Shown: positions 1-44,319 of the stretch, in pieces | How the letters are laid out: the number at the start of each line of letters is the position of its first letter | Position numbering within the stretch: the first letter of the stretch is position 1 | IMG/VR virus record: IMGVR_UViG_3300020156_000045 | Location: 1-44,319 of that record | Source: a virus | DNA length: 44,319 nt | Reading direction: 5' to 3' (one strand) | Notes under the pieces: generated by a model | Databases searched by the model: none | Told to the model about the DNA's origin: nothing | The model's input: the letters and a program-made list of their open reading frames with translations, nothing else | Position numbers and translations under genes: made by a program

Positions 1-101
1 TCAGGGCTTCGGTCAGGGCTTCGGTCGGGGATTCGGTCTGGGCTTCGGTCTGGGATTCGGTCTGGGATTCGGTCTGGGCTTCGGTCTGGGATTCGGTCGG
101 G
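1..101 (+). repeat. 12-bp tandem repeat array, left-hand copy
   Basis: Units of 12 bp (GMT-TCG-GTC-DGG) run to base 101. From base 28 the array is identical to the array at the window end. Bases 4-50 instead match 44050-44096, and positions 3 and 27 differ from the register that fits the rest, so this end carries a different copy order than the other end. Confidence 0.85.
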
Positions 102-287
102 GCTTACATATCTGATTTTTTCACACTTGCAAATTGGAAATATATAGACCACAAACCGGGTAAGAACCCGTTTCAACCGTGCATTGATTTATGGATGCTC
201 GGGCTTGTTCCTGGCTTTGATGGCAAAACGTGGAGGCTCCACAAAATGTGCGATAACGCAAAAATCATATACGAATGGACTAAATAG
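1..287 (+). CDS. C-terminal part of [A/D]SV[W/R/G] tandem-repeat protein (gene continues from the window end)
   Basis: The reading frame is open from base 3 and stops at TAG 285-287. It begins with about eight 4-residue repeats, then a non-repeated tail of about 61 residues (AYISDFFTLANWKYIDHKPG onward) containing CIDLWMLGLVPGFDGKTWRL. Bases 28-153 equal 44194-44319, so this is the 3' end of the gene starting at 43632. Short proteins with this repeat and a tail of this style (Leu-Val-Pro-x-Phe-Asp-Gly-Lys-x-Trp-Arg-Leu) occur in phages and Clostridia to my knowledge, with no known function. It sits in the early operon between a 135-aa unknown protein and small early genes. Confidence 0.8.
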   Translation, partial: RASVRASVGDSVWASVWDSVWDSVWASVWDSVGAYISDFFTLANWKYIDHKPGKNPFQPCIDLWMLGLVPGFDGKTWRLHKMCDNAKIIYEWTK

Positions 288-1219: not shown

Positions 1220-1861
1220 ATGAACAAAAGTGAGAGTATCAAAAATTTATCAATAGCATTATCAAAGTTTCAAGGCGAGGTAAAAAATCCGCCGAATTCT
1301 GCAAACAACCCGTTTTTTAAAAGCAAGTACGCACCGCTTGATGTTGTCATAAGCACAGCTAAACCAGTTCTAGCAAAATATGGTCTATCCTTTATTCAAC
1401 TTCCAGGATGTGACGGAGAATATGTTACCTGTACCACAATTCTTATGTTTGAGGATGAATTTTTAGAAAGTGATTTAATCAAAATCAAACCTTCTAAAAT
1501 GGACGTTCAGGGCATGGGTGCAACAATCACGTACATCAAACGTTACCAGTTGTCGGCGATTCTTGGACTTGCGTCTGAAGAGGATAAAGATGGTGGAAAA
1601 CCTGCGCCGGAACAAACTGACGAAGAAAAGGACAAGGAAGAAGCAAAGAAAATTGAAAACAAACTTGCCGACAGCATGAAGATTGAAACAGTCAAAAAAA
1701 TGCTCGAAGAAACCGGCACTAATGAAGAACAATTCTGTGAACATTACGGTATACCTGCGCTAACGTTTATGACCAATGCTATTTTTATTCGCGCCATGAA
1801 CGCTCTTGGAAAGAAAAAGGATACTCAGTCAAAACAACCAAAACCACAATTAGACATATAG
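1220..1861 (+). CDS. erf: Erf-family single-strand annealing recombinase
   Basis: The 213-aa product matches the ERF superfamily: N-terminal LSIALSKFQGEVKNPPNSAN, then FKSKYAPLDVVISTAKPVLA and LPGCDG, then a GMGATITYIKRYQLSAILGL segment, which is the conserved core. Erf proteins form rings that anneal complementary single strands for circularisation and recombination of phage DNA. Ribosome site AAGGAGGG precedes ATG 1220. Residues 120-150 are a charged Glu/Lys linker and the C-terminus ends QPKPQLDI. It begins a recombination module with DUF1351, SSB and a Ref-like nuclease. Confidence 0.92.
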   Translation: MNKSESIKNLSIALSKFQGEVKNPPNSANNPFFKSKYAPLDVVISTAKPVLAKYGLSFIQLPGCDGEYVTCTTILMFEDEFLESDLIKIKPSKMDVQGMGATITYIKRYQLSAILGLASEEDKDGGKPAPEQTDEEKDKEEAKKIENKLADSMKIETVKKMLEETGTNEEQFCEHYGIPALTFMTNAIFIRAMNALGKKKDTQSKQPKPQLDI

Positions 1862-2934: not shown

Positions 2935-3348
2935 ATGAATAAAGTAATTTTAATGGGAAGGCTCACTAAAGACCCCGAATTACGCTACACCAGCAATAAC
3001 AACACTGCGGTATGCAATTTTACTCTTGCGGTTGACAGACGATTTAGCAAGCCCGGGGAAGCAAAACAGGCCGACTTTTTTAACTGCCAAGCATGGAAGA
3101 ACCAAGCTGAGTTTTGCAGCAAATATTTTGCCAAGGGATTAAAAATAGTTGTTGTTGGGAGTCTCCAAAACAGGTCATGGGATGACGCTGAAGGCAAGAA
3201 ACATTACACAACGGAAGTCATTGCCGATGAAGTATATTTTGCTGAAGGCCACAAGACTGAATCGACTAGCGCAACGCCAAGCAAACAAGATATATGCCCT
3301 GAGTGCGGAAAAACTATGGCTGAATGCGATTGTTCGCTGCCGTTTTGA
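2935..3348 (+). CDS. ssb: single-stranded DNA-binding protein
   Basis: The N-terminal 105 residues are an SSB OB-fold (MNKVILMGRLTKDPELRYT, NFTLAVDR, DFFNCQAWKNQAEF, VVVGSLQNRSW). It should coat ssDNA during replication and recombination. The tail is unusual: instead of an acidic tip it ends CPECGKTMAECDCSLPF, with CxxC and CxC pairs and only the final Leu-Pro-Phe resembling the usual DIPF. ATG 2935 follows AGGAGG. The stop overlaps the next gene's proposed TTG start. Confidence 0.95.
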   Translation: MNKVILMGRLTKDPELRYTSNNNTAVCNFTLAVDRRFSKPGEAKQADFFNCQAWKNQAEFCSKYFAKGLKIVVVGSLQNRSWDDAEGKKHYTTEVIADEVYFAEGHKTESTSATPSKQDICPECGKTMAECDCSLPF

Positions 3349-6652: not shown

Positions 6653-7467
6653 TAAATATTGAGGGGTACATAAAGCTTTACCGCAGCATACAGGATAATC
6701 CTATTTGGCAGCAAAAACCATTTTCCAAAGGTCAGGCTTGGGCCGACATGATGCTTAGGTGTAATCATGCATGCAAGCCAATTAATGGATTTGGAGGGCT
6801 TCAGTGGGTAAAACGTGGTGAATTTGTATCAAGCAATTATAAGCTTGCTGAGGCGTGGGGGTGGAGCGAAAGCGCAGTTAGGTTGTTTATGAGACAGCTT
6901 GAATATAACAAAATGGTTCTTCGTCAAAGTTTCGGCAAATTTTCGTTATACTTTCTCCAAAACTATGCGCACTTCCAGAGCACAGAAACAGACGATTTGA
7001 GCCAAATACCTAACGCACAAAGTGCGCACAGAAAACGCACAAGCAACGCACAGAAAACGCCAAACAAGAATGATAAGAATATAAAGAATGATAAGAATAT
7101 AAAAGATATATATTCATCGTCACACATGATAATGGCAGAAAAATTAAAATCATTAATTCTTATCAATAGCCCAGGAGCAAAAATTCCAGACGATTTATCA
7201 AAGTGGGCTGCTGAGTTTGAGAAAATGGAACGGTTGGACAAGCGATCACCTGAACAAATAAACAAGGTAATTGAATTCAGTCAAAAAGATAACTTTTGGA
7301 AAGCGGTTATATTATCAGCTAAAAAACTTCGCGAGAAATACGACACATTACTACTGCAAAAAGACAGACCCAAACAATCACAGCAATCTAATGCCATACA
7401 GAAGGGTAATTTTGAACAAAGAAAGTATACGGATGATGAAATTGAAAGGATGTACAAAGAAGTATGA
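6649..7467 (+). CDS. replication initiator-type protein (winged helix N-terminus, DnaD-like)
   Basis: GTG 6649 overlaps the preceding stop. Residues 1-100 (GYIKLYRSIQDNPIWQ ... FVSSNYKLAEAWGWSESAVR ... LEYNKMVLRQSFGKFSLYFL) form the winged-helix domain found in Firmicute phage replication proteins. A low-complexity Asn/Lys linker (NKNDKNIKNDKNIKDIYSSS) is encoded by a short direct DNA repeat near 7068-7100, followed by a helical C-terminal domain with FWKAVILSAKKL and a tail ending DDEIERMYKEV. It likely binds origin DNA and recruits helicase. Confidence 0.7.
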   Translation: MINIEGYIKLYRSIQDNPIWQQKPFSKGQAWADMMLRCNHACKPINGFGGLQWVKRGEFVSSNYKLAEAWGWSESAVRLFMRQLEYNKMVLRQSFGKFSLYFLQNYAHFQSTETDDLSQIPNAQSAHRKRTSNAQKTPNKNDKNIKNDKNIKDIYSSSHMIMAEKLKSLILINSPGAKIPDDLSKWAAEFEKMERLDKRSPEQINKVIEFSQKDNFWKAVILSAKKLREKYDTLLLQKDRPKQSQQSNAIQKGNFEQRKYTDDEIERMYKEV

Positions 7468-41908: not shown

Positions 41909-42673
41909 GTGAGAAATACGTTTGAAATAGACAAAATTTATAATATGGATTGCCTTGTTGGAATGAGGGATATTCCAGACCAATCAATTGACATGATATT
42001 GTGCGACTTGCCATATGGAACAACTGCCTGTAAGTGGGATTCAGTAATTCCCTTTGAGCCTTTATGGAATCAGTATAAACGAATTATTAAACCAGCGGCA
42101 GCAATTGTTTTGACTACAGCACAACCATTCACAAGTCAATTAGTTATGAGTTGCCCCGACTGGTTTAAATACGAATGGGTATGGGACAAAATCAAAGGAA
42201 CGGGGTTCTTAAACGCCAAGAAACAGCCCATGCGAAACCATGAAAACATATGTGTGTTTTACAAAAATCAATGCACATACAACCCGCAAAAGACCTATGG
42301 GCATGTCTTAAAGAAGTCGTTTCGAAAGAAAGAGCTGCAGACTGATGTTTATGGACAAATGAATAACGACTATATGTATGAGTCTGCAGAACGCTATCCA
42401 AGAAGCATACAAGTATTTTCGATGGATACGCAGAATTCATCATTGCACCCAACACAGAAACCGGTAGCACTCTTTGAATATTTAATAAAAACGTACACAA
42501 ATGAAGGCGAAACAGTTCTGGACAGTTGCATCGGTAGCGGAACAACCGCGGTTGCTTGCATTCGATCAAAGCGTCATTTTATGGGGTTTGAGATTGAAAA
42601 GGCGTATTTTGATATAGCAAGCAAGCGTATTAAGGAAGAACTTAGTCAAGTGTCAATTTTCAATATAGGATAG
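41909..42673 (+). CDS. beta-class DNA N6-adenine/N4-cytosine methyltransferase
   Basis: 254 aa. IDMILCDLPYGTTACKWDSV has the catalytic D-x-P-Y motif (DLPY) near the N-terminus and ETVLDSCIGSGTTAVACIRS then FMGFEIEKAYFDIA the SAM-binding region near the C-terminus: the beta-class order. Protects phage DNA from host restriction or marks it; no restriction enzyme neighbours it. GTG 41909 has only a weak ribosome site; ATG 41945 is an alternative. Confidence 0.88.
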   Translation: MRNTFEIDKIYNMDCLVGMRDIPDQSIDMILCDLPYGTTACKWDSVIPFEPLWNQYKRIIKPAAAIVLTTAQPFTSQLVMSCPDWFKYEWVWDKIKGTGFLNAKKQPMRNHENICVFYKNQCTYNPQKTYGHVLKKSFRKKELQTDVYGQMNNDYMYESAERYPRSIQVFSMDTQNSSLHPTQKPVALFEYLIKTYTNEGETVLDSCIGSGTTAVACIRSKRHFMGFEIEKAYFDIASKRIKEELSQVSIFNIG

Positions 42674-43631: not shown

Positions 43632-44319
43632 ATGTGTAAATTTTTCAGTGTTGTATCAGACGGTGCGGGCGAAATAATGTATTTTAACGCCGATCATAGA
43701 AAGCAAATCATTTCCGGTACGCTGGTTGATAAAAACGGTAATAGAATATCCGAAACCGACAGTCACTCAAGTATCATGGCGTACAACGAGATACTCGGCA
43801 AAGATGAAGATATGTACAACAAATATGAGTACAATCCACTCACAAAAGAATTTGTTAAGGACCACGTAAGCAACAAGGATGATTCTGCCGCGGTTAAGGG
43901 TAAATGTATGTCACTGGATTTTAAAACTGTTGTTCCAGAACTTCAAGTTAAGGAAATTATTAATCCGCTTAATATTCAGCACAGTGACACTGTAAGTGAT
44001 TCAGAAATTGCATTGTTGGAAATGTGGGATTCGGTCAGGGATTCGGTCTGGGCTTCGGTCAGGGCTTCGGTCGGGGATTCGGTCTGGGCTTCGGTCGGGG
44101 CTTCGGTCTGGGCTTCGGTCTGGGCTTCGGTCGGGGCTTCGGTCGGGGATTCGGTCTGGGCTTCGGTCGGGGCTTCGGTCAGGGCTTCGGTCTGGGATTC
44201 GGTCTGGGCTTCGGTCTGGGATTCGGTCTGGGATTCGGTCTGGGCTTCGGTCTGGGATTCGGTCGGGGCTTACATATCTGATTTTTTCACACTTGCAAAT
44301 TGGAAATATATAGACCACA
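43632..44319 (+). CDS. N-terminal part of [A/D]SV[W/R/G] tandem-repeat protein (runs off window end, completes at 287)
   Basis: ATG 43632 with GGGGAGG upstream. The first 132 residues (FFSVVSDGAGEIMYFNADHR, AYNEILGKDEDMYNKYEYNP) form a unique domain, followed by 20 repeats of four residues, then the tail continuing at base 1. Whole protein is about 275 aa. Every synonymous position in the repeat is fixed while two nonsynonymous positions vary. Function unknown; the unique N-terminal domain may be the active or binding part, the repeat a tunable spacer. Confidence 0.8.
   Translation, partial: MCKFFSVVSDGAGEIMYFNADHRKQIISGTLVDKNGNRISETDSHSSIMAYNEILGKDEDMYNKYEYNPLTKEFVKDHVSNKDDSAAVKGKCMSLDFKTVVPELQVKEIINPLNIQHSDTVSDSEIALLEMWDSVRDSVWASVRASVGDSVWASVGASVWASVWASVGASVGDSVWASVGASVRASVWDSVWASVWDSVWDSVWASVWDSVGAYISDFFTLANWKYIDH
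44028..44267 (+). repeat. 20-copy 12-bp tandem repeat
   Basis: Units GMT-TCG-GTC-DGG (M = A or C, D = T, A or G). Order of variants: DR DW AR AG DW AG AW AW AG AG DW AG AR AW DW AW DW DW AW DG, naming residues 1 and 4 of each unit. Confidence 0.9.
44194..44319 (+). repeat. terminal overlap with window start
   Basis: 126 bases identical to 28-153. Most simply the overlap of a circular assembly; a true terminal repeat cannot be excluded. Confidence 0.85.

Follow-up and report, generated by a model that had tools for sequence, protein, structure and literature searches.

A shuffled 12-bp coding repeat with a fixed, mixed residue alphabet in a putative early accessory gene of phages

Results and Discussion

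The window, i.e. the whole stretch of 44,319 nucleotides of the IMG/VR virus record IMGVR_UViG_3300020156_000045 that was analysed here, encodes a protein with an array of 20 tetrapeptide units in which only two residues vary. The array presumably represents a coding minisatellite that is shuffled by recombination or slippage, while selection keeps a fixed mixed alphabet with little order, and it seems to reside in an early accessory gene of the phage; we assign this interpretation a probability of slightly below 0.6.

Organisation of the array gene

In agreement with the initial annotation of the 20 x 12 bp repeat, 10 of the 12 bases of the unit are invariant and the array is in frame, its variation being restricted to the second base of codon 1 (A in eight units, C in twelve) and the first base of codon 4, which is base 10 of the unit (T in eleven, G in six, A in three). 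Six unit types occur, in an order without evident pattern. The TRF score of 375 is far above chance, and within the window the 12-bp unit pattern was detected only in the array and its left-end copy, with no occurrence on the minus strand. We name the [AD]SV[WRG] family here and define its members as arrays of at least 10 consecutive x-S-V-y units with Asp or Ala at x and Trp, Arg or Gly at y, both positions being mixed. The window array belongs to this family, with both variable positions mixed and the silent sites fixed.

The open reading frame starts with MCKFFS, reads in frame through the array and runs off the window end (Table 1). Comparison of the window protein with Pfam, PHROG and NCBIfam revealed nothing significant, including no match above the cut-off to the Pfam models of DUF6745 (PF20530) and DUF7666 (PF24703).

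A partial copy of the array followed by the shared downstream flank at the left end of the window had been missed in the initial annotation. Both mismatches of the resulting terminal repeat affect the base that distinguishes Trp, Arg and Gly (base 10), and the 48 bases past the array part are identical. Since the ends share array and flank, the contig is circular and was broken inside the array. Thus, the array gene continues at positions 154-287 of the window, and the real length and order of the window array are uncertain due to the assembly break. The two mismatches may stem either from distinct alleles in the population or from an artefact of the assembly.

Table 1. Features of the array gene and its surroundings in the window.
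Feature	Position	Strand	Basis
N-terminal domain of the array protein, MCKFFS-type	43632..44027	+	ORF; homologues L002-L008; no Pfam family above threshold
[AD]SV[WRG] array, 20 units of [GAT/GCT]-TCG-GTC-[TGG/AGG/GGG]	44028..44267	+	ORF, TRF, unit alignment
First part of the C-terminal domain (AYISDFFTLANWKYIDH...), in frame, truncated by the window end	44268..44319	+	ORF
Terminal direct repeat, pairs with 44167-44319	1..153	+	151/153 identical
Repeat of the final eight units of the array at the left end	3..101	+	TRF, unit pattern scan
C-terminal domain of the array gene, stop codon 285-287	102..287	+	ORF
ERF-type annealing protein, downstream across the junction	1220..1861	+	Pfam; gene assigned by reading the sequence
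SSB, after the ERF gene	2935-3348		Pfam; gene assigned by reading the sequence
DNA methylase gene (N6_N4_Mtase), neighbour	41909..42673	+	Pfam; gene assigned by reading the sequence

Relatives and protein backbones

With the window protein as query, 58 loci were detected in viral contigs, and pattern scans added many further ones. Silent positions were free or nearly free in the general scans; the scan pattern required GMN..NGG (or GVN..NGG) in four units in a row and left the silent codons and the W/R/G ratio free. Pattern scans and homologue search together revealed the array pattern in hundreds of phage arrays.

The arrays are carried by backbones that are unrelated to one another, namely MCKFFS-type proteins (L002-L007, like the window protein), proteins of the 'YKLAxPDGWDF' type, and DUF7666 and DUF6745 proteins. 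Many array proteins carry the DUF6745 domain C-terminal to the array, with E-values down to 1.6e-62 (Pfam match in the relatives L014, L017 and L030), whereas the window protein does not match it. Array-free DUF6745 relatives were found in Streptomyces and in Microcystis phages, and the array therefore represents an optional segment. DUF7666, which was not detected in the window protein, forms the N-terminal domain of the array proteins L010 and L015.

The clearest such array found among annotated phage records is that of gp38 of the Mycobacterium abscessus prophage prophiGD102-1 (MW584211; L397, 5938-7383), a DUF6745 protein with 46 units of [DG]QL[WRG]. One locus (L005, 5001-7271) contains three paralogous array genes in succession, whose arrays differ. 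At two others (L051, 3707-4840; L249, 929-2550) runs of short array ORFs, or of arrays, were detected whose alphabet is looser (N, S, G, E, V). The QV array of a Nocardia farcinica plasmid (L396, 818-1290) shifts its reading frame within the array. The long EQVEKSVEESVG repeats in a protein of a Halobaculum plasmid (L401, 3767-4654) are probably of a different type, charged and coiled-coil-like. A match on a Lactococcus plasmid (H15), a uniform SIGV repeat antisense to an annotated gene, was set aside.

Constant amino acids and changing codons

In 199 non-redundant SV arrays (4155 units) the mean heterozygosity of base 2 amounted to 0.457 and that of base 10 to 0.605, whereas the third bases of codons 1-3 reached 0.030, 0.020 and 0.043, so that silent heterozygosity is 10- to 30-fold below that of the variable bases. 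Position 1 was occupied by Asp in 47% and Ala in 44% of the units of the first set of 144 arrays, and position 4 by Arg (32%), Trp (31%) and Gly (28%), the exact frequencies being partly ascertained by the fixed scan pattern.

The same 144 arrays comprise 28 distinct silent frames. Each array uses one of the Ser codons TCG, TCC, TCA, TCT, AGC and AGT and one of the Val codons GTC, GTG, GTT and GTA, these choices varying between arrays; likewise, Arg is encoded by AGG or CGG in an array-specific manner. Parallel families obey one grammar, the QV arrays following [AD]QV[WRG] and the QL arrays [DG]QL[WRG]. In the latter, Asp/Gly (44% each) replaces Asp/Ala, and Gly, Arg and Trp account for 37%, 28% and 26% at the last position. 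The small alphabet recurs with different silent codons, core dipeptides (SV, QV, QL) and flanking domains. Since the codons differ between arrays while the amino acids hold, the signal lies at the protein level, and the pattern is set there. The spread in composition among the 144 arrays exceeds the binomial expectation, and this over-dispersion means that composition is not tightly controlled.

Turnover of the array units

Both flanks of the pair L247/L257 show 100% identity over stretches exceeding 1300 bp, and the arrays of the pair differ by two unit-indel events and zero substitutions. Unit indels without substitutions were also found in L027/L042 and L218/L252, where just one flank or the contig end is comparable. 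In L030/L211 the upstream flanks are 100% and the downstream flanks 99.0% identical over 1500 bp each, and the 52-unit arrays are heavily rearranged; the arrays of L019/L183 are reshuffled between flanks of 98.6% and 95.2% identity. As judged from these alignments, the pairs show that the arrays acquire, lose and reorder units far more rapidly than the adjacent DNA diverges, with the restriction that most arrays stem from metagenome contigs, in which the tendency of tandem repeats to mis-assemble could mimic some of the indels. We infer that unequal recombination or slippage presumably acts on few founder variants. Two copies in Nocardia farcinica NCTC11134 differ by gaps only, with zero mismatches, and their alignment is uninformative on allelic change.

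Furthermore, 69 of the 168 SV arrays from the pattern scans extend to no more than 60 bases from the end of the retrieved sequence, which in the checked cases was the contig end. Such a position in turn points to problems with length or polymorphism.

The initial annotation had proposed a recent spread of copies or gene conversion combined with selection, and had regarded abundant silent variation and a stable unit order in relatives as arguing against it. This part of its interpretation is supported by the rearranged arrays and the homogeneous silent sites: silent positions are near-invariant within each array of the relatives, and unit order is unstable even where the flanks are 99-100% identical.

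Mixed and monotonous arrays

In simulations of pure unit turnover in arrays of 20 units, all but one allele were lost after a median of about 85-250 events. Since turnover alone soon fixes one allele, the mixtures that are kept need an explanation.

In three Neisseria-type loci (L088, L139, L236), whose flanks are 93-98% identical, all units are ESVR in two arrays and ESVG in the third. These monotonous arrays represent a natural case of complete homogenisation.

In the set, which was ascertained by pattern, two monotonous arrays stand against 199 mixed ones. Because mixed arrays dominate the sample, the most plausible explanation is selection that maintains a mixture at precisely these two positions, although sampling by pattern limits how strongly the frequencies can be interpreted.

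Unit order and charge

No strong autocorrelation was found within arrays at lags 1-12, nor any association between A/D and W/R/G within the unit (144 arrays), and clear internal block duplications were present in only 10 of the 144 arrays. A coded order of the residues, as initially suggested, is thus doubtful, the order being close to random. A period-2 or period-3 order, looked for as a sign of solenoid stacking, gave no clear signal at lags 1-12.

A weak charge patterning was observed, in that Asp follows Arg more often than expected (z=3.7) and adjacent Asp units are under-represented (z=-3.1). The fractions of Asp and Arg correlate across arrays (rho 0.33). However, the correlation is not significant in pure-alphabet arrays (rho 0.17, p 0.11), and a role in charge balance is therefore weak.

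Genomic neighbourhood and putative function

Across the junction the genes of the window are arranged in the order integrase, repressor-like HTH protein, pRha/KilAC, methylase, array gene, HNH, ERF, DUF1351 and SSB; the families were taken from a Pfam tally and assigned to the ORFs by reading. The gene for gp38 of the Mycobacterium prophage has Gam-like, ERF and RepA-like genes in its vicinity. The neighbourhood of the array genes is hence one of replication, recombination and regulation, and the N-termini that were inspected by eye showed no obvious signal peptide. A surface-binding protein, as considered in the initial annotation, or a tail protein is not supported by this setting between a pRha/KilAC-type regulator with a methylase and the HNH/ERF/SSB block. 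Another short tandem repeat, composed of 11/22-bp and 18-bp units, is located in an ORF of the replication region (window positions 7012-7103).

AlphaFold models predicted a helical array at very low confidence (pLDDT of about 54 and 33), and Foldseek searches against PDB and viral libraries returned nothing at E<=0.001. A weak profile match to the PDB chain 9ikm (TLP-4), a (TASX)n chain sharing Ala/Ser letters only, was dismissed as a composition match. In PADLOC-DB, which was searched for known anti-phage defence proteins, no match was obtained for the window protein or L002, and weak partial matches only for three relatives.

The array protein is probably an early, cytosolic accessory protein of the phage, and an intracellular multivalent interaction region appears to be the most likely function of the array. 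According to the proposed model, a temperate-type phage would carry, in one of its early accessory genes, a coding minisatellite whose few founder variants would be shuffled as described above, while selection at the protein level would keep both residue classes mixed and purge other residues. The array would form an extended region between two globular domains and serve as an order-tolerant multivalent interaction surface, with Trp and Arg providing contacts, Asp balancing the charge and Gly acting as spacer, probably inside the infected cell. Tentatively, the array may also be regarded as a widespread {Asp or small}-{Ser/Gln}-{Val/Leu}-{Trp/Arg/Gly} module that would repeatedly have taken on new silent codons and be shuffled by recombination, forming a modular intracellular interaction array whose unit order or composition would tune its binding partners in the host.

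Alternative explanations

It is rather doubtful that the array is a combinatorial recognition array, in which the order of [AD] and [WRG] would specify a target and reshuffling would be favoured for altering specificity or evading host recognition. An invariant scaffold that carries two variable residues side by side ([WRG][AD]), the rapid turnover of order between near-identical flanks and the alphabet kept across many arrays with different codons would fit such a role; however, the order is nearly random and uncorrelated, sub-order is common to recent relatives only, and W/R/G persists although a broader alphabet would presumably result from an arms race. An unlikely explanation is that of a neutral minisatellite, whose two-position variation would be a founder leftover of no consequence. 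Coding minisatellites do turn over fast, the order looks random, and the existence of monotonous arrays (all-ESVR versus all-ESVG in the Neisseria relatives) demonstrates that homogenisation happens, but one alphabet is found across the 28 silent frames and three core dipeptides with the much lower silent heterozygosity given above, and neutral turnover as simulated would fix one allele.

The initial annotation had also considered directed change. Directed mutagenesis, e.g. by a diversity-generating retroelement writing both variable positions, is very improbable. The arrays share restricted variable positions and an invariant scaffold with such elements, the only two adenines of the unit GATTCGGTCAGG are located exactly at both variable positions, and the window ends differ solely by base-10 substitutions. 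In contrast to such elements, the record of the window lacks a reverse transcriptase match (RVT_1, PF00078), and no template copy of the unit was found in the window beyond the array and the terminal repeat. Recurrent point mutations at base 10 would furthermore mix AGG and CGG, and such mixing is almost absent: among 190 arrays holding either codon 137 were AGG-only, 51 CGG-only and 2 mixed, compared to about 152 mixed arrays expected under free drawing. The 51 CGG-only arrays have no adenine in the Arg codon, and the closest pairs differ by indels of whole units only. With neither reverse transcriptase nor template nor adenine-specific substitution found, we rejected this mechanism. On/off switching, as would be expected of the phase-variable array suggested initially, is not supported either, since repeat number alters reading frame or expression in contingency loci and in-frame units of 12 bp never change the frame. 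The strict 12-bp periodicity and the base invariance within one array might also point to a DNA- or RNA-level element such as a binding-site array or a structure. This seems extremely unlikely and was rejected, as the Ser, Val and Arg codons change between arrays while the amino acids stay and both flanks continue in the frame of the array.

Comparison with known systems and biological meaning

The NANP/NVDP tetrapeptide repeats of the malaria CSP represent a coding minisatellite with concerted evolution. Such coding minisatellites resemble the phage arrays in their short in-frame units, rapid gain and loss of units and limited unit types, whereas the phage arrays are distinguished by a fixed 2x3 alphabet of near-equal use, by almost no silent variation and by a pattern that recurs in many arrays although their codons and cores differ. 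TALEs are repeat-code proteins of near-identical units with two neighbouring variable residues. The phage arrays share these properties; however, their unit comprises four residues, no conservation or correlation of order was seen, and they are not known to have a target. Searches of open-licence full texts for the motif strings, DUF6745 and DUF7666 found no paper, and broader text searches of the same source yielded no relevant paper on the array grammar.

In these arrays two forces are cleanly separated in one stretch of DNA, the silent sites being homogenised and two residue positions mixed. The recurrence of this separation in array after array with different codons strongly argues that selection acts on a restricted set of residues within a rapidly rearranging repeat. 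The arrays may explain why many phage contigs break at such genes and, as the flanking domains of the array proteins are known only as DUFs, they give a testable handle on early phage proteins.
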